Assembly: GCF_036417845.1 (NCBI RefSeq)
Contig: NC_089979.1
Span: forward strand, 118,949,415 to 119,013,414
From: Apteryx mantelli
Taxonomy: Eukaryota > Chordata > Aves > Apterygiformes > Apterygidae
Reading direction: 5' to 3'
Length of the DNA: 64,000 bases
Positions within the stretch are counted from its first letter, which is position 1. Every line of letters begins with the position of its first letter. A program made the translations under genes and the position numbers. Shown in pieces: positions 20,361 through 64,000 of this stretch. Under the pieces are notes generated by a model, which searched no databases, was not told where the DNA came from, and saw nothing but the letters and a program-made list of their open reading frames with translations.

Positions 20361-23300
20361 ATGTCATCTATCCAGAACCTCCAATCCTTTGGTAAGAGGC
20401 TCCCCGCCGCCCTCCTCCTGCGATTCACCTTCGCCAAGCCCCTGCCGACTTGCTGCTTGCCCCCTTTCTTCCCCGCGACTTACCCTTCCCTCTCTTTTTT
20501 GGGGGGACTTGGTGTGTCGGTGACCCCCTCCCTGCCCTGGTGACACTGAAACGGTTATTGGGCGGTGTGTTGCCAGCCCGTATTCTGCCTGCGTTTTTCT
20601 GTAAAGAGGTCCCTGTCGGCTCGTCCTTGTCCTCCTGATCACTCACCCTGTGCTGTCAGCCTGGGGACGTGTGTTGTGTATACAGTAGAGGGAAATCTGA
20701 TATGAGGATAATCTCCCTCTCTGGTCGGAGCTGCTGCCCTCTCTAGTATTCTGACCCCTCCAACCTGCAGCCTTTGCCTGAATCTCTGCTAGGGCTCCAG
20801 GCCAGGCTTTTCTGTCAACGGTGCAGTCCCACAGTTGCAATCTTTGGTGAGTGGGGGGGTGTCTAGGGTTGGTGTTGCCCTGTCAAGGAAGGGAATAATC
20901 ACCTCACTACCCCATTCCCAATAAAGAATCACTTTGCTTGTTGATTTGCTGCAAAACTGCCTCATGTGTGTCATTATCCACTGCTCCAAAACCTGATTTA
21001 TGCCTTACAAATGATAGTGTTTTTTACAAATTGAGTTATATAGCTATTAGGTCATGTCTTGTATTAGCACAGAAGTTGTACCTTACTGGGCCATGGTTCT
21101 CCATGTTTCTTGATCTATAGGCTACAGAAGTGAGCAAGTAACTCTTCAGGATAATGTTGTCAAGCTTTTGATCTCAGCTTCGGCTCTGATCTTCTGCACC
21201 TGTAAGCAGTATGGGAAAGTTGTGGTAACTATGATTTGAGAACTTGTCCCAAGCTTAGCAATGTGCTACCCGAAGGATTTGTTTAAAGTAATCCAACGTT
21301 GACACCTACTGTGTTGGCTTTACCTCCAACCTAGAATCCTAAACTCTTTGTCGAGTGCAAGTCCCCTTTTCCTTTAATCCTTTCCTTGACTGAAATTTTT
21401 TATCGGTGTTTGTCTTACAAGCTGTGAAACTTGGGATATTTTAACAAATGCCCAGGGGAAATGGAGCTGCTCTGCCACACCTGGGCTATATTTCTTTCTT
21501 GTGGTGTTTGCACCCTCATGCTGCTTAACGCCTTCATGCTCTTGTCATTCTTGATTCCATTAGGGCCAGTCTGTCTGCTGAACTACTTCTGTTCCTATTC
21601 CTGCCCAAGTTTTATTTTTTTGCAGTGCTTGTTTCCAGTGGATGGCAAAACTTGATCTGTGCTTTTAGATTTGAGTTTTGGATAGAAATTTGAACATCTT
21701 AAACTGCATACATTTAAAATGGTGAACTTACCCTTTCTGAAAATCTGACTCTTTAATATGATGCTGATTAGTATGCAGAATAACTAGTTGTGGGTTAAAA
21801 ATAAAAATCTTGACTTAAAGCACTTAATGCTTTAAGATTTATTTGAAGGAGTTACTGTTCGGGAAGCTTGTAGGCTTACCAAATAAAATACATAATTAAG
21901 TGTGTTTTTGTGGAGAACAGAAAATAAGTAGTATAACCTGGAAACCCATCTTTTCTTCCTGAATGCCTGCTTGTTGTATACCTCTTTTAGATAAATTGAA
22001 GCTTGGAAGAAATAGAGAATGGACTTCTGTGTAGACAAAGCATAAATGAATTATAATGATTCTTGTCTGAAACTACCTCCTAGCAGAGTGATGCTGATTG
22101 ACATACAGCTTCTGTCATCTGTTGTATGTTGCTGTGTCTTGTTTACATTAGTAGCCAAGAATATATCCACAACTTAAATGCTGGTAGTGCAGTAGTTGTC
22201 ATGGTGCCAAGACTTCTGTTTTTGACCTGTAAAGCAGTGCATGTGAAAGAGCTTTTTATTTTTCTGTAATTATCAGTTCATCTGATAAAAGATATCCTCC
22301 CCATACCAACCTTACTTTGCTTAAAATGCATACGACTGGCTACAACGCTTTGTGCACTTAATATTCTCACTGCTGGAAATGAGCATAACTCTAGTCTAGG
22401 AACTACTTTTTCAGGTGCAGGGCTTCGGGATTTAGGGTTTATAAGAAAAAGTGAAAGCTTAAATTGATACCATAGCAGAATTTCTAAGAAGTTATTAAAG
22501 AAACTAGATGCTTAATAGCTGACCAACAGTAGGCTGAGTTAGTAGGCTAGTTAGACTTAATACAACTGAAGAAAAAAGTAATCTTAACAGTGCATTTTTA
22601 AACAGGGGGAAAAAAAAGCAAGATTATCCCATAAAGCCCTTAGTGAAGTGAAAAACTTATCTACTAGTTTTTGAGTTCGAATATTTTCTTTTATGAGAAT
22701 TACATACGATTTTTTTCCTCTTGCAGACCCCTTTGCTGATGCAACTAAGGGTGACGACTTACTCCCAGCAGGGACTGAGGATTACATTCATATAAGGATC
22801 CAGCAACGAAACGGAAGAAAGACACTAACAACTGTTCAGGGAATTGCAGATGATTATGACAAAAAGAAACTTGTGAAAGCCTTCAAAAAGGTGAAGTTGT
22901 TACTTTGATTTAAGAGTAAAGATATTACATAAAGGAGTATAAAGTTAAGAGGAGAAATATTTTTTTTTCTTTCTTGCCAGTGCCCATCACTTTCTTATTC
23001 AGGTTGATCCCCTTCCCTGTTTTTCTCAAAACTATTGTCACTGTCCAAGTGACAGTGATTTTTGCCAAAAAGCTATATGTTTCTTTCCTGTAATGCTCCA
23101 GTAAATAGAAATATATTCAGAGTGTTCCATTTAAATCTCACAGGTGTCTGGCATTATTGATATGAAGAATAGAACCAAAAACACAAAAGAAATTCTACTT
23201 AAAGTTGATTTTATCGTAGTTGGATTGCTGTTGAAATAAAGGTCTTGAGTTCTCCCAAGATAAAAGCGTATTTACTTCCTATTTTAAAATAGTATGTTGT

Positions 23301-24352
23301 TGAAAGGCTGTATCTTATGATTTTGTTTTCCATTCTTGTATTGAGTATTGGCCAGTCGCTTCTGCGTGGTAGCTGATCTTGCCCCTGCTTGGATTTACTA
23401 TCAGCAGCTTAGTTTGCTTTTACGCATCCCCAAATATGTTCCATTTGCTCTCAAAACCACCACAGAATAGATCTAACCTTGCCTTTTTTGGTTTCAGAAT
23501 TTTGATAAGCAGCTTCTGTGACAAAAGCCTGCTGAAAAGGCTTACTAAGTAAAATCATAATATACATAAGATATCTTATAATATGAATGTTTCTCTCTAG
23601 AAATTTGCTTGTAATGGTACTGTGATTGAACATCCTGAATACGGTGAAGTTATCCAGCTTCAAGGTGACCAGAGGAAGAACATCTGCCAGTTCCTCTTGG
23701 AGGTGAGGCACTGCAGATAAATACCTTGCAGTATTCTAAAACTCTCTGGAAGCAATAAATATTGACAGGTGACACTGATGTTAATTAATCTGTTAAAGAT
23801 GCCTACTATAATTTCTTTATATTTTCAGCCAAAAGGCAAAATGGCTTTTGCAGCACTGTTAAATGAGAGTAAGTCTTCAGTAAGAATCAAAATGCTTTGA
23901 AATGTGTTTGCCCTGCTGGAACCTATCATTTGTTCTCTGGCAATGCAACTTAAGCTTTTCATCTGTAAGTTGAAGTGTTTGATGCAAATCATAATTTTGA
24001 GGCTGAAAGCACTGTAGACAAAAGAGGTTTTTTCAAAAGTACTTACTAGCTTACTGCTGTAAATAGTGATATTGAGGTTTTAAATTGTCAAAGAATATGT
24101 GCTAGGACTGAAGAACAGATCAGACGTCTGAAAGAGTTTTCCTTGTTGTGTAGTGAATTCTTTTGTTTGACCCAAATGCATTTTGGAAACTAGAAAACTG
24201 CTTTATTCCATAGCTACAGTATTAATTTCTTTAATCAAAGTGTAAGATTCTGATAACTTCATATAAGCTTATAAGCTTTATTGAATTATGTTGCTTTTCT
24301 CCTTTAGATTGGCATTGTCAAGGAAGAACAACTGAAAGTTCATGGTTTCTAA
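20361..24352 (+). CDS. EIF1B: Eukaryotic translation initiation factor 1B (four exons)
   Basis: Complete eIF1-family gene. eIF1 binds the 40S subunit near the P site, promotes scanning and blocks initiation at poor start codons in the cytoplasmic 43S complex. Exons are 20361-20391, 22727-22890, 23601-23702 and 24308-24352, all with GT-AG introns. They encode 113 residues, the normal family length. The protein starts MSSIQNLQSFDPFADATKGDD, followed by the SUI1 domain (roughly 28-105) with IHIRIQQRNGRKTLTTVQGI and the basic KKKLVKAFKKKFACNG segment, and ends EEQLKVHGF. ADATKGDD, FLLE and GIVKEEQ point to EIF1B. EIF1 has ADASKGDD and GLAKDDQ at these places. The start codon is the first Met of the conserved N-terminus, 30 codons before the exon 1 donor. 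No frameshift or premature stop was seen. Intron 1 is about 2.3 kb. Confidence 0.98.
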
Positions 24353-45887: not shown

Positions 45888-45937
45888 GTTGTTTTGCATA
45901 ATTAATATTACTGTTGTTTTGCATAATTAATATTACT
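45888..45937. repeat. 25-bp tandem duplication
   Basis: Two exact, adjacent 25-base copies (45,888-45,912 and 45,913-45,937). Each contains TTTGCATAATTAATATTA, an overlapping octamer-like and homeodomain-like motif. Confidence 0.95.
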
Positions 45938-45984
45938 GTTACCCATATTTCAGGTGTCCCATCTGTGCTAATGAGACTCTTTCT

Positions 45985-57867: not shown

Positions 57868-58314
57868 AGTCCAGCAAAAGACTACTAAAATGATTAAGTG
57901 ACTGGAGCACCTGTCATATGAGGAGAGGCAGAGAGAGCTGGGATTGTTCAGGCTGCAGAAGAGAAGGCTCAGGGGGGATCTTCTCAATGTGTATGAATAC
58001 CCGAAGGGAGGCAGTAAAGACAACGGAGCCAGACTCTTCTCAGGGGTGCCCAGTGACAAGACGGGAGGAACCGGGCACAACCTGAAACACAGGAAGGTCC
58101 ATCTGAACGTAGGAAAACACTTTTTTACTGTGAGGGTGACTGAGCACTGGACCAGGTTGCCCAGAGAGGTTGTGGAGTCTCCCTCCTGGCAGATATTCCA
58201 AAGCCATCTGGACTCGATCCTGGACAATCTGCTCTTGGTGACTCTGCTTGAGCGGGGGGTTGCACAAGATGAACTCCAGAGGAGCCTTCCAACCTCAACA
58301 TCCTGTAATTCTGT
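57868..58314 (+). mobile_element. CR1 LINE, 3'-end fragment
   Basis: About 450 bases match the well-known 3' end of avian CR1 in order: 'gatgattaagtgactggagcacct', 'atgaggagaggcagagagagctggg', 'gagaagagaaggctcagggggga', 'gaaacacaggaaggtccatctgaa', 'actgtgagggtgactgagcactgga', 'cagagaggttgtggagtctccct' and 'gatgaactccagagg..ccttccaac', ending 'ctgtaattctgt'. It is 5'-truncated, as most CR1 copies are, and includes only the 3' end of the reverse-transcriptase region and the 3' UTR. The open frame at 57,944-58,399 is CR1 read-through, not a host gene. Several indels suggest moderate age. Confidence 0.92.
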
Positions 58315-60943
58315 CAACGTTGCAATTTTACTGTCACTTCTGCTGGGGTACGATTCGACTCATTCTTCCATTTCCAGGCTTTTAAAAGAGAATGTTTAAC
58401 ATGATAGCCGTGCATCCTATACCCCTTTTTCAGGAATTACATTGATACCCCCAATGTCTAATGCTGAAGACGGCTGTCCGATTTTCTGTACTCAATGCTT
58501 TTTCCTTCTTATTTGTTTAATTAAATAGATTACAGATTTCTTAATCCAAGAATCACTAACAAAGTACGCGCAAGTACATCTTCCTCCCCAAAGTCTTTAA
58601 AACAGTCAGTTATCCCTTGAAAACACACATACTAAAAGGTATCCTTAGATGAGCTGAAAATACATAGCATTGCATATGGCACATCAGAATGACTGTCTCT
58701 AATTTTAGACACTGGGGGTATCAACTTAATTTCTGAGAAATGGGTACAGTGTATGTGACTTTAATGGTAAACATTGCTTTCTAAAAGAGCTTTGTTGCAA
58801 GTTAAATCCTTACTGCTGTGCACTGGTCATGCTGCGTCTCTGCTGAAGGCCACCATACTGTCGCAAGGCTGGCAGAAGCAAGCGTGTGCCCAGTTCTCAC
58901 CCACTGCACTTTGTTGCCCCATGTATTCAGTTAAGCCACCATTGCAGTGACCTGCAGTGAACACACTGTGCGGTAAAGTGGAGAAACTGAAAAGCCAGTG
59001 CACATTCCCTTGCGCTCACTCGGCTACAGTACAGTAACGTTCAGCTAAGGTGAAGGAATCGGCTAACCTTTGAACTGCCCCACCATTACCTGGTAAATGC
59101 TGCCTGGAGCCACCTTATTTAGTCAGAAAGGGCTAAGACACTCTGTGCAAAACCTGTTACCGCTAGCCCTTTGGCACTAGACGTAGTGGCAGCAAACCTG
59201 ACTTGCTAGAAGAGAATGATAAAATGCAGCATAGGTGTATTTTACAATACCCTGAGACTGCATTGTTGTGTCTTACTACTACAGGCATCCCTTTCTGAAT
59301 TCTAAATTGCTTTTGTTCTAAACTGAATACTAAATACACCAAATAAAAGTAAATAGCTGCTCCGGGAATGACTGTTTATAGTGAAGCTGAAGACCATCAA
59401 CTGCCAAGCTAAACAGTATAGGTATAGAGACTGGATAAATAGCAATTGGTATGCTCATACTTGTATAATTACTTTACCAGCCCAAGCAATAGATTTTGCT
59501 GACTTTCAGAACCAGTACAAGACCTATGAAAGTTCATAGAAATGAGGTCTGGGGAAGTAATAACATTCGGGCTGGCAGATGCGATCACTGCACCTATTCC
59601 TCTGCTTGAAGATACTGTTCTGCATGCTTCCGAAAAGGAAGCGCAATCGTTAACCATTTTCGCAATACGTAACTCTTAAACAGTCTTCAATGTGTTTACC
59701 CTGATAGATCCTCATGAATTGCTGTATCTACAGAAGAGGCTGGCAACAGGTGAACAACCAAGAGCAACCTGGCTTTGCATCCTTGTCCTTGCCCAAGCCA
59801 CAAGGCTTGGGCCGCCGTTATAGCTGCCCAATCTGTGCCCAGAAATGGAACTGCTCCTAGGAGCACTGCCCATGTATGAGCGCACAGAACCAGGGATCAG
59901 AAAGAGACCAGAGAAACGTGCTCTGTGAAACCATTTCCAGTTAAATTCCGAGACTTTTGCCACACCTGCAGTCCGATTTATATCAACTGCTGCAAGTAGG
60001 ACGCTGAAGAGGTGGCAGATAAGGTTCTTGGGGGTTTTATAGCTGCGGTTTGGAAAAAAAAAAGAATAGGCTTCAAGAAGAGGACACTATTCCCCATACA
60101 GAAAAGTTTCACCAATTGCCAACCTCAAAGAGTTCCTTCTAAAAAACACATCCATTCAGAAAAGAATCAAACACCAATCGTGCACATTTTAAGCTCTCCT
60201 TTTCCAAGACTATAAATTAGCCTAATGTGTGCAAGAAAGTATGCACACACAAGTGTCAGCGAAGCCTTATAACTTCCCGGACCTCACACAGCCAACTGCA
60301 GTAATAGAGGTAGTAGTGTGAGGGACCAGGCAAAGATAAAGCTCATGACTCCATGAATTTGTGCGCACCCCCAGGCGTGCGTGCGTGCGTGCGTGCATGC
60401 GTGCATCTCTACATACACGTACCACCTTCTACGTCTGCAGAGACACCTGGTAACTTCAAGCAACGTAGTACTGGTGTTGCTCTCAGTTAGTGTCGTATGA
60501 CTAAGCACAATATAAAAAGAAAATAATCATTTTGCTCTTCTTCGGTCTCATAAACCAGCAGGCAAAAACTTGAAAGCTTTTCCATGCGCCAGAAAGAAAA
60601 GGAACGCTTGTACTCTAGGTAGCTCTAATGACAACCAACCCCTTTAAGGCAGCTGTACTTTGTGAGACTGCCATTTCCTCGTCCAGATTTACCGCTTCCT
60701 TTTGATTTACCGCTTCCCCTGACGTTCCCTAGTCCTTCTTCAAGCAAAACAGTGACCAGACAGCCAATGCTCACAGCACTGGCAGCTCCACCATCAAGAC
60801 AGTTGATTCCAACATTCTTGCTTTGTAGCTGTGGCCCAGTCACATGCAACGCACAGAGGTAAAAGCGAAGGCACTGCGAATCTTCTGAAAGGAAGCCTTC
60901 TCTTCTGAACGCTGAACGAGCCCAGGTCCCTCCACCTCCCCTT
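58315..60943. other. Stretch between CR1 and the palindrome
   Basis: No gene supported. Two minus-strand open stretches (59,469-59,681 and about 60,625-60,845) look less random than average, and the second follows an acceptor-like GGGCCACAG. Neither has a domain I know or a matching partner exon. A (GTGC)n repeat lies at 60,375. Confidence 0.45.
60375..60405. repeat. (GTGC)n microsatellite
   Basis: Seven or so copies of the tetranucleotide GTGC/GCGT with two GCAT interruptions. Confidence 0.85.
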
Positions 60944-61122
60944 CTATGCCACGTGCTGCAGCACCTGGTCACCTCTGTGGCCCTAAGCTGGGCTCCTCCA
61001 GTCTTCTTTGTGGCGGGGGGAGCCCAAAGCCGGCACAGCAATCCAGAGGAACTCTCACAAGGGCCAATCAACAGGGAGGCAAACATTTTTGCAGTTTGAG
61101 CAAATTAGCCCTAATGGAGCCA

Positions 61123-61407
61123 TTAGAACGGAAGGAACTCCCTGCTGAAATCCAGCACGTCTTTGTGCTGGAATTGAAGCCCTTTGCTTCTCCAGGGGAG
61201 CAAAGCTCCTTCGATCGATCCGGTGGTGGTGGTGGTGGTGGTGCGCCTCCAAGGAGGGCCTTGCTCCATTTTCAGCCACCCCTTAGGTAGCTGAAGAGCG
61301 CAGGAGCTGAAGACAGCTACCCCCATTCGCCTTCTCGACCGCCGACGGAAAAACACCCGCCTCCGGGCCCCCAGTGACCTTGGCGACCCTCCGCCAGACT
61401 CCTCCAT
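61123..61407 (-). CDS. Doubtful 94-codon Arg-rich open frame, left arm
   Basis: Mirror of the frame at 63,537-63,821 and identical in protein. Begins MEESGGGSPRSLGARRR, has a dense Arg block (residues about 15-27) and a seven-Thr run made by (ACC)n. The start has a good context (GCGATGG). It lies beyond the poly(A) signal of the EPMEVDPP gene, so it would need its own promoter, which I do not see. No family recognised. It may be a chance frame in GC-rich DNA. Confidence 0.2.
   Translation of the reverse strand: MEESGGGSPRSLGARRRVFFRRRSRRRMGVAVFSSCALQLPKGWLKMEQGPPWRRTTTTTTTGSIEGALLPWRSKGLQFQHKDVLDFSREFLPF
61222..61243. repeat. (GTG)n microsatellite, left arm
   Basis: Seven trinucleotide units, the mirror image of the (CAC)n at 63,701. 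It has equal length in both arms, which again shows their youth or homogenisation. Confidence 0.9.
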
Positions 61408-61566
61408 CGCCCCGGCACAGCAGCCCAAAGGCAGCCAGGCCCTCTCGTCACCTCTCCCTCGGGGCTCAGGGCAGAAGAGAGGCCACCTCTTCACGCCCCA
61501 GGGCGTGCGGGGACAGTGCGGGGCAGGAAAGAAGGGCTCACACAACACTTGAAACTCAGGAATTCT

Positions 61567-61572
61567 TTTATT
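61567..61572 (-). terminator. Poly(A) signal, left-arm gene
   Basis: AATAAA on the minus strand about 294 bases past the stop of the 119-codon frame. It is followed by a TG-rich element (AAGTGTTGTGTGAG), as in the right arm. Confidence 0.6.
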
Positions 61573-61583
61573 CATTGGCCCAT

Positions 61584-61870
61584 GGGGGTTGGCTGGTCTC
61601 AGTTTGCAGCCTGCAGATGTCTGTTCCACGCAGCCCCTCACCTTGTTCTTTTGGCGGCGGGCTGGTGGCTGCGCTCTGTTTGCCGCCTGCGGATGTCTGT
61701 TCCACGCAGCCCCTCACCTTGTTCTTTTGGCGGCACGCTGGTGGCTGCGCTCTGTTTGCCGCCTGCGGATGTCTGTTCCACGCAGCCCCTCACCTTGTTC
61801 TTTTGGCGGCAGGCTGGTGGCTGCGCTCTGTTTGCCGCCTGCAGATGTCTGTTCTATGCAGCCCCTCACC
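61584..61870. repeat. 76-bp tandem repeat array, left arm
   Basis: Mirror copy of the array at 63,074-63,360: three full 76-bp units and a partial fourth, with the same minor differences between units. The array overlaps the stop codon of the left-arm gene. Confidence 0.9.
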
Positions 61871-62225
61871 TTCTTCTTTTGGTGGGGGGCTGGAGGCTGG
61901 GCCCAGCTCGATGGCCGTGCCACCCCCTGGCTCTCCTGGCACGCCTCTGCTGTCGTGGCTGATGGAAAGCCATTCCAGGTGCCAGGGGGTTTTGGCAGGC
62001 CACCTTTGCTGGCGGCGGATCGACCTCCATCGGCTCCACCTCATTGTATGCTGGAGGATCGACCTCCATGGGTTCCGGGTCGTCGTTGGGAGGATCAACC
62101 TCCATGGGTTCTGTGTCATCCTTTTGGGGCAATGTCACAGAATCCTTGATGGCCCAGATCTTGTCCCAGAACTCCCTGCTCCTTATCCTCATCCTTTTGG
62201 TTCCCCTGCGGGCCACCTGATTCAT
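61866..62225 (-). CDS. Hypothetical basic protein with EPMEVDPP repeats, left-arm copy
   Basis: Encodes 119 residues, identical to the right-arm copy at 62,719-63,078. Starts MNQVARRGTKRMRIRSREFW, then three EPMEVDPP repeats (about residues 39-72), then a basic region (QRRARRARGWHGHRAG) and a C-terminal KRRR. The promoter (TATA at 62,388-62,395) and poly(A) signal (61,567) are mirrored too. The two copies are transcribed divergently, away from the palindrome centre. I do not recognise the family. The description and doubts given for the right copy apply. Confidence 0.6.
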   Translation of the reverse strand: MNQVARRGTKRMRIRSREFWDKIWAIKDSVTLPQKDDTEPMEVDPPNDDPEPMEVDPPAYNEVEPMEVDPPPAKVACQNPLAPGMAFHQPRQQRRARRARGWHGHRAGPSLQPPTKRRR

Positions 62226-62387
62226 TGTGCAGGAGTGCCCTGCAGAAAGCTGCGAATGCTCGCAAGACACCACCCGGAGGGTAGCAAGTAACTCGCCGAG
62301 GCTTCGTTGCCACCTGCCGCTCCAACTCTCGTTGGTGCTCCAGGAGCAAGAGCCTCAGTGAGCTCTGGGCCAGTGCCAGCGCTCCCG

Positions 62388-62395
62388 CTTTTATA
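62388..62395 (-). promoter_or_regulatory. TATA box, left-arm gene
   Basis: TATAAAAG on the minus strand, 163 bases before the start codon at 62,225. Mirror of the right-arm box. Confidence 0.7.
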
Positions 62396-62420
62396 GGGCC
62401 ACCGGCAGTGAGGGGGATTG

Positions 62421-62428
62421 TGACATCA
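62421..62428 (-). promoter_or_regulatory. CRE-like site, left-arm promoter
   Basis: TGATGTCA on the minus strand, 25 bases upstream of the TATA box. One mismatch to the palindromic CRE TGACGTCA. Confidence 0.5.
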
Positions 62429-62451
62429 GCGCGCCGCTGTGACCTCAGGCC

Positions 62452-62492
62452 AAGTGGGCCACTGGACCGCCAAGCATGCCAGCCATTCAGTG
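62452..62492. other. Palindrome spacer
   Basis: Forty-one bases between the arms that do not match in inverted orientation. The first mispair is A at 62,452 against G at 62,492. The spacer sits between the two divergent promoters, so both genes share a control region of under 200 bases. Confidence 0.9.
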
Positions 62493-62515
62493 GGCCTGAG
62501 GTCACAGCGGCGCGC

Positions 62516-62523
62516 TGATGTCA
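62516..62523 (+). promoter_or_regulatory. CRE-like site, right-arm promoter
   Basis: TGATGTCA, 25 bases upstream of the TATA box, with a second related site, TGAGGTCA, at 62,497-62,504. A CRE-like site close to a TATA box is the arrangement of several spermatid-expressed genes controlled by CREM. Testis expression is only an inference. Confidence 0.5.
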
Positions 62524-62548
62524 CAATCCCCCTCACTGCCGGTGGCCC

Positions 62549-62556
62549 TATAAAAG
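62549..62556 (+). promoter_or_regulatory. TATA box, right-arm gene
   Basis: TATAAAAG in a GC-rich context, 163 bases before the start codon at 62,719. A start site near 62,580 would give a 5' UTR of about 140 bases with no upstream ATG, which supports the start chosen for the gene. Confidence 0.7.
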
Positions 62557-62718
62557 CGGGAGCGCTGGCACTGGCCCAGAGCTCACTGAGGCTCTTGCTC
62601 CTGGAGCACCAACGAGAGTTGGAGCGGCAGGTGGCAACGAAGCCTCGGCGAGTTACTTGCTACCCTCCGGGTGGTGTCTTGCGAGCATTCGCAGCTTTCT
62701 GCAGGGCACTCCTGCACA

Positions 62719-63078
62719 ATGAATCAGGTGGCCCGCAGGGGAACCAAAAGGATGAGGATAAGGAGCAGGGAGTTCTGGGACAAGATCTGGGCCATCAAGG
62801 ATTCTGTGACATTGCCCCAAAAGGATGACACAGAACCCATGGAGGTTGATCCTCCCAACGACGACCCGGAACCCATGGAGGTCGATCCTCCAGCATACAA
62901 TGAGGTGGAGCCGATGGAGGTCGATCCGCCGCCAGCAAAGGTGGCCTGCCAAAACCCCCTGGCACCTGGAATGGCTTTCCATCAGCCACGACAGCAGAGG
63001 CGTGCCAGGAGAGCCAGGGGGTGGCACGGCCATCGAGCTGGGCCCAGCCTCCAGCCCCCCACCAAAAGAAGAAGGTGA
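62719..63078 (+). CDS. Hypothetical basic protein with EPMEVDPP repeats, right-arm copy
   Basis: A 119-residue open frame that I do not recognise. The ATG has A at -3 and is the first ATG after the predicted start site. The N-terminus is basic (MNQVARRGTKRMRIRSREFW), followed by WDKIWAIKDSVTLPQ. Three acidic, proline-rich repeats of EPMEVDPP follow (about residues 39-72). Then comes a Gln/Arg-rich region (QPRQQRRARRARGWHGHRAG) and a terminal PPTKRRR that could be a nuclear localisation signal. No signal peptide or membrane segment. The stop codon lies inside an AAGGTGAGG donor-like site, so splicing there would remove the stop and extend the protein. TATA box, CRE-like site and poly(A) signal make a compact unit of about 0.8 kb. 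Internal repeats kept in frame and complete signals suggest a real gene. No homology is claimed. Confidence 0.6.
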   Translation: MNQVARRGTKRMRIRSREFWDKIWAIKDSVTLPQKDDTEPMEVDPPNDDPEPMEVDPPAYNEVEPMEVDPPPAKVACQNPLAPGMAFHQPRQQRRARRARGWHGHRAGPSLQPPTKRRR

Positions 63079-63360
63079 GGGGCTGCATAGAACAGACATC
63101 TGCAGGCGGCAAACAGAGCGCAGCCACCAGCCTGCCGCCAAAAGAACAAGGTGAGGGGCTGCGTGGAACAGACATCCGCAGGCGGCAAACAGAGCGCAGC
63201 CACCAGCGTGCCGCCAAAAGAACAAGGTGAGGGGCTGCGTGGAACAGACATCCGCAGGCGGCAAACAGAGCGCAGCCACCAGCCCGCCGCCAAAAGAACA
63301 AGGTGAGGGGCTGCGTGGAACAGACATCTGCAGGCTGCAAACTGAGACCAGCCAACCCCC
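63074..63360. repeat. 76-bp tandem repeat array, right arm
   Basis: Units begin at 63,074, 63,150, 63,226 and 63,302 (period exactly 76), the last one degenerating after about 45 bases. Each unit starts GGTGAGGGGCTGCGTGG (first copy GGTGAGGGGCTGCATAG) and contains ACAGACATC and CCGCCAAAAGAACAAG. Every boundary reads AAG|GTGAGG, a strong splice-donor match. The period is not a multiple of three, so a frame shifts at each unit. Confidence 0.92.
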
Positions 63361-63371
63361 ATGGGCCAATG

Positions 63372-63377
63372 AATAAA
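63372..63377 (+). terminator. Poly(A) signal, right-arm gene
   Basis: AATAAA about 294 bases past the stop codon, followed within 25 bases by AAGTGTTGTGTGAG, a GT-rich downstream element. Confidence 0.65.
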
Positions 63378-63536
63378 AGAATTCCTGAGTTTCAAGTGTT
63401 GTGTGAGCCCTTCTTTCCTGCCCCGCACTGTCCCCGCACGCCCTGGGGCGTGAAGAGGTGGCCTCTCTTCTGCCCTGAGCCCCGAGGGAGAGGTGACGAG
63501 AGGGCCTGGCTGCCTTTGGGCTGCTGTGCCGGGGCG

Positions 63537-63821
63537 ATGGAGGAGTCTGGCGGAGGGTCGCCAAGGTCACTGGGGGCCCGGAGGCGGGTGTTTTTCCGTC
63601 GGCGGTCGAGAAGGCGAATGGGGGTAGCTGTCTTCAGCTCCTGCGCTCTTCAGCTACCTAAGGGGTGGCTGAAAATGGAGCAAGGCCCTCCTTGGAGGCG
63701 CACCACCACCACCACCACCACCGGATCGATCGAAGGAGCTTTGCTCCCCTGGAGAAGCAAAGGGCTTCAATTCCAGCACAAAGACGTGCTGGATTTCAGC
63801 AGGGAGTTCCTTCCGTTCTAA
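63537..63821 (+). CDS. Doubtful 94-codon Arg-rich open frame, right arm
   Basis: Same frame as the left-arm copy at 61,123-61,407. It lies about 160 bases past the poly(A) signal of the EPMEVDPP gene. An arginine block (ARRRVFFRRRSRRRMG) is its only striking feature. It has no promoter, poly(A) signal or family that I can see. A longer open frame reads through the 76-bp array on the opposite strand. Both could be chance. Confidence 0.2.
   Translation: MEESGGGSPRSLGARRRVFFRRRSRRRMGVAVFSSCALQLPKGWLKMEQGPPWRRTTTTTTTGSIEGALLPWRSKGLQFQHKDVLDFSREFLPF
63701..63722. repeat. (CAC)n microsatellite, right arm
   Basis: Seven trinucleotide units, followed by CGGATCGATCG. Mirrored at 61,222-61,243. Confidence 0.9.
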
Positions 63822-64000
63822 TGGCTCCATTAGGGCTAATTTGCTCAAACTGCAAAAATGTTTGCCTCCCTGTTGATTGGCCCTTGTGAGAGTTCCTCTG
63901 GATTGCTGTGCCGGCTTTGGGCTCCCCCCGCCACAAAGAAGACTGGAGGAGCCCAGCTTAGGGCCACAGAGGTGACCAGGTGCTGCAGCACGTGGCATAG

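Follow-up and report, generated by a model that had tools for sequence, protein, structure and literature searches.

The last 3057 bases of the 64,000-nucleotide stretch of Apteryx mantelli DNA analysed here (contig NC_089979.1; the whole stretch is called the window below) form an inverted repeat, as read from the assembled sequence alone, in which two identical arms of at least 1508 bp face each other across a spacer of 41 bp, and each arm carries one predicted gene that resembles EPMEVDPP-repeat proteins of birds. We consider that this structure is probably a young inverted duplication which doubled the gene around one symmetric promoter, and that it probably lies on a bird autosome.

Geometry of the palindrome

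To describe the inverted repeat, all bases were paired by the rule i+j=124944 and compared base by base. The results showed that the left arm (60944-62451, minus strand) is identical to the reverse complement of the right arm (62493-64000, plus strand) over 1508 bp with 0 mismatches, and that a unique spacer of 41 bp lies between these inverted arms, which confirmed the initial annotation of apparently identical arms of at least 1.5 kb around a spacer of that size. Since base 60944 partners base 64000, which is the final base of the window and cuts the right arm, 1508 bp is a lower bound on the arm length. The repeat finder gave a slightly wider version, with arms at 60944-62456 and 62488-64000 (1513 nt each) and a gap of 31 nt, and two of those 1513 pairs, 62452/62492 and 62454/62490, fail to match. 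The matching repeat lengths and identical translated frames claimed earlier were also found, as a GGT run of the same kind, a 76-bp tandem array and an open reading frame (ORF) of 119 aa are the same in both arms. When the window was compared with itself (blastn with its low-complexity filter, E <= 1e-5), no inverted pair elsewhere was better than one of 86 bp at 78% (58379-58461 and 58705-58787, 243 bp apart), which excludes a chance origin of the arms.

The spacer (62452-62492) is the sole asymmetric DNA in the part of the palindrome seen. It has no exact 11-mer in common with the window outside the central stretch, and it showed no likeness to the SMRTbell adapter, which was the one adapter compared. 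The inner symmetry of the spacer was borderline when scored without gaps, at 9 of 20 (p 0.049 in comparison to shuffles and 0.057 in comparison to 41-mers of the window), and was ordinary when gaps were allowed (p 0.32 and 0.30). The idea that the palindrome is old, was once longer and has since diverged at its centre was therefore set aside, as a symmetry that is borderline ungapped and absent gapped gives no clear sign of one.

The gene model in each arm and its relatives

Each arm holds one predicted gene, oriented divergently from the other, which consists of a TATA box, an ATG, a 119-codon ORF, a stop codon and an AATAAA signal. For the right gene, on the plus strand, the TATA box TATAAAAG was located at 62549-62556, the ORF at 62719-63078 (119 aa plus stop, with the ATG at 62719) and the poly(A) signal AATAAA at 63372-63377; the left gene, on the minus strand, has the mirror TATA box at 62388-62395, the ORF for the same 119 aa at 61866-62225 and the AATAAA at 61567-61572. 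The centre of the palindrome lies 77 bp upstream of the TATA box, and both copies retain promoter, ORF and poly(A) signal. The 76-bp array, with 4.1 copies in each arm, covers the stop codon as well as the 3' part of the gene (63045-63354, plus strand, in the right arm and 61590-61899, minus strand, in the left arm), and the word AAGGTGAG, which we take to resemble a splice donor, occurs in it 4 times at a spacing of 76 bp. The unit length of 76 is not divisible by three, so that the tail of the protein would be altered by the gain or loss of copies or by a small indel. None of the viral contigs contained an exact match to a 29-base segment of this unit.

The 119-aa protein is basic in its N-terminal part, contains the EPMEVDPP repeat three times and has KRRR in its C-terminal part. 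In the three 35-nt units that encode the repeats, which were defined on DNA by the repeat finder and were tested whole, the 12 variable columns comprise 8 of 11 third, 3 of 12 first and 1 of 12 second codon positions, and the difference between third positions (8/11) and first and second positions combined (4/24) was significant at P 0.002. A narrower test, confined to the eight EPMEVDPP codons (5 of 8 third positions and 0 of 16 others variable), was rejected for its circularity, as the codons in question had been chosen for encoding the same residues. The structure model of the protein was poor (predicted local distance difference test score, pLDDT, 64.4; predicted template modelling score, pTM, 0.18), with one helix at residues 3-29 and otherwise no structure.

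A protein search with the 119-aa ORF returned nothing at E <= 0.01, and a search with the 162-aa stop-to-stop frame returned 20 matches at E <= 10 (P0121-P0140). Two of these were strong, P0121 (E 4.1e-39, 74 of 116 residues identical to the ORF) and P0122 (E 8.7e-19, 56 of 137 columns identical), and both are similar to the ORF in the repeat as well as in its flanks, which places the ORF among the EPMEVDPP-repeat proteins. P0123 (E ~1e-5) and P0124 (E ~1e-4) were moderate, and the other 16 matches (E 1.5e-3 to 5.1) rest mainly on the repeat. The five matches with names are all from birds, all weak and mainly in the repeat, and include one from Patagioenas fasciata and two from Grus japonensis, which are hypothetical proteins, and two from Lagopus muta, LOC125686119 and LOC125695660. 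Like the window ORF, the bird EPMEVDPP proteins have two to five exact or near repeats with mostly basic stretches on either side; unlike it, 9 of the 17 matches in alignment A3 of these proteins have the motif WHHxTVPG. The relatives P0121 and P0122, together with the third-position bias in the 35-nt units, make a chance ORF unlikely. The earlier claim of a full divergent gene in each arm thus stands in the form of gene models with database relatives, while transcription of either gene is a prediction.

The similarity to P0121 extends beyond the ORF. This protein, encoded by one open frame, also matches a window frame across the TATA box (47/66), ending just a few bases short of the arm's inner edge, and matches another frame over the 76-bp unit at the C-terminus (31/45). 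Judging from these alignments, the DNA common to the window and P0121 probably comprises the entire unit, with the promoter.

Other searches gave little. No Pfam family matched the ORF, and the 18 members of alignment A3 gave two weak Pfam matches (E 0.034 and 0.43, one member each); no solved structure in PDB matched the ORF, and the A3 profile had a single match in PDB at E 0.95. The Rfam scan, at gathering scores, and the tRNA scan were empty. The ORF query found no match in the genome contigs, and the A3 profile found none in the viral contigs or the genome contigs. One viral-contig locus matched by the ORF query, L001 (22 residues, 64%, E 6e-5), was considered as a relative and was read as a chance match, because the surrounding 62 residues are rich in Arg and Gly and lack the EPMEVDPP repeat. 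In the literature search the string MEVDPP was found in no paper, and no paper was found on this protein family.

Genomic setting

About 37 kb to the left of the palindrome, the EIF1B gene was identified in four pieces at 20361-24349, all on the plus strand. The two middle exons (22726-22890 and 23601-23705) are identical to the human protein; the first exon piece (20361-20390) covers 10 residues and is weak alone (E 0.10), and in the last piece (24311-24349) the final 13 residues match, the reported stretch from 24284 including a stop and unmatched residues. SUI1 was the only clear Pfam match (E 3.7e-11), with four others at E 0.003 to 0.008, in a scan that took in 144 of the 166 frames of at least 75 aa ending before base 61000. 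Pfam matches at E 0.0016 to 0.0085 among 91 shorter plus-strand frames ending before 19500 were taken as chance. We assume EIF1B to be autosomal in birds, chicken included, and as a single landmark it speaks against W or Z linkage and points to an autosome. Pieces of MYRIP, of an ENTPD protein and of RPL14 gave a best E of 0.76 against the window, so that EIF1B is the single basis of the synteny. We take the region to belong to chromosome 2, which differs from a published placement on chromosome 3, both being autosomes. In that review, chicken PrRP2, and MYRIP with it, is on chromosome 3 (PMC4226156).

A frame of a long interspersed nuclear element (LINE) on the plus strand (57902-58396) had 7035 database relatives at E <= 0.001, and among the 120 relatives listed, the named ones are all birds (Mycteria, Grus and Limosa), with several annotated as reverse transcriptase, by which the window reads as avian. 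The frame is presumably of the CR1 type. Four of the listed Grus relatives are labelled 'translation initiation factor IF-2-like', which looks like a misannotation. The imperfect inverted repeat at 58379-58461 and 58705-58787 adjoins this LINE and is possibly a small mobile element. Farther to the left, a 25-bp tandem repeat in two exact copies was found at 45888-45940 (Tandem Repeats Finder, TRF, 100% matches).

Origin and significance of the palindrome

A recent inverted duplication is the explanation that we judge the more probable, in preference to an assembly artefact, to which we give a smaller though still substantial likelihood. By such a duplication, one copy of a short gene related to the EPMEVDPP-repeat bird proteins would have been copied in inverted orientation by fold-back or template switching some 80 bp upstream of the TATA box, and the outcome would be two head-to-head copies with one common symmetric promoter region. 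Both copies would then be transcribed divergently, as their predicted signals suggest, and the dose of a mostly disordered, basic and probably nuclear protein would be doubled, while the arms would be identical as the event, or the last gene conversion, was recent. At an assumed neutral rate of 2e-9 per site per year, the 0 differences in 1508 bp correspond to less than ~0.5 million years (My) since the duplication or the last conversion, with a bound of 0.25 to 1 My for rates of 4e-9 to 1e-9, in agreement with the initial view that the arms are very young or homogenised. A random fold would seldom land just upstream of a promoter, which suggests a real event.

Several points weigh against the young duplication. 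The arm runs to the end of the window, so the outer junctions fall outside the sequence read, and exact identity across the repeats and the GGT run is equally expected from an artefact. The content of guanine and cytosine (GC) is 0.47 for the left flank and climbs to 0.60 for the arm, and this rise could come from the gene itself. P0121 is equally similar upstream of the ATG and its C-terminal frame differs, so that the comparison falls short of proving constraint on the whole ORF. Only one palindrome of more than 200 bp was detected in the 2006 chicken draft (PMC2444050), a count which covers loops up to 20-25 bp and in which 200 bp is the arm length according to the legend and the overall length according to the text, and such structures are accordingly rare a priori. 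This comparison is limited, as an old draft may miss palindromes and the loop here is longer.

If the palindrome is an assembly artefact, there is a single gene copy, and a fold-back (snap-back) read or a self-reverse-complemented contig end made the second arm, with the 41-bp spacer being a genomic loop upstream of that copy. The perfect identity of the arms and a match which continues to the last base seen are both in keeping with this, and palindromic reads are known from strand-displacement amplification, where chimeras form when a 3' end pairs with a displaced strand close by (PMC13265396). Because the strands that anneal are nearby ones, the loop of such a chimera would be ordinary genomic sequence, and for this reason the earlier reasoning, in which a unique spacer other than an adapter counts against an artefact, fails. 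An artefact is harder to reconcile with a centre that falls within 80 bp of the TATA box and yields two complete gene models, with a spacer unlike the one adapter compared, and with the practice that a consensus assembly usually requires several agreeing reads.

Other histories of the pair are less probable. That a lineage-specific gene is fixed on an autosome as a perfectly identical head-to-head pair with one symmetric promoter, homogenised by gene conversion, seems to us unlikely. An old head-to-head pair, ancestral for the family and repeatedly homogenised, in which the symmetric promoter itself is selected, appears more doubtful still; the similarity to P0121 across the TATA box, nearly to the inner arm edge, and the borderline ungapped symmetry of the spacer would fit it, but with gaps that symmetry is ordinary. 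The comparison with an ampliconic sex-chromosome palindrome, whose identity is long kept by arm-to-arm gene conversion, was not supported and we hold it to be very improbable, as the window contains EIF1B, presumably autosomal in birds, the arm as far as it is seen is much shorter than those of the duck cases (1508 bp being a lower bound), and the GC content may be due to the gene. In its favour, identity and gene content are similar to those of such palindromes, an arm GC-richer than its flank resembles primate X palindromes (PMC8981503), and the known bird cases are W-linked, including one in white-throated sparrow (PMC3403216) and 38 in Pekin duck, which measure 15.2-345.5 kb and are built of repeats without robustly expressed genes (PMC7787181). 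These two last histories overlap with the young inverted duplication, so the likelihoods given here need not sum to one.

In comparison to known systems, the W palindromes of white-throated sparrow and Pekin duck have near-identical inverted arms, as here, and differ in the size of the duck palindromes, in comparison to a visible arm of 1.5 kb, a spacer of 41 bp and EIF1B some 37 kb away. Fold-back inverted duplications and short-spacer palindromes have a short asymmetric loop and identical arms, as here, but unlike the cases described in chicken lymphoma cells, transgenes, reporter plasmids and yeast constructs (PMC2444050, PMC8701086), the palindrome described here would be part of an assembled genome, and complete gene models lie within it. 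According to a review, breakage or rearrangement of test constructs is curbed by spacers of 35 bp and 52 bp, whereas in mouse a palindrome of 15.4 kb whose junction was perfect was rearranged in ~35% of offspring (PMC8701086). By extrapolation from those constructs, a 41-bp spacer may be tolerable for arms of 1.5 kb, and if the palindrome is real its spacer would be close to the reported size at which palindromes become stable.

If the structure proves to be an artefact, it warns that a spacer of genomic rather than adapter sequence is no proof of a palindrome, and that the gene counts of multi-copy families can be inflated. A real palindrome would also draw attention to a little-known family of bird proteins with EPMEVDPP repeats. 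A homogenised autosomal pair, if true, would be a small counterpart of the ampliconic palindromes of sex chromosomes. If the palindrome is real, it would represent a rare case of a short-spacer palindrome occurring naturally in the genome of a bird, on an apparent autosome and with each arm bearing a complete gene model, and one could test on it directly whether such arms are kept identical outside the sex chromosomes by gene conversion, by recency or by selection.

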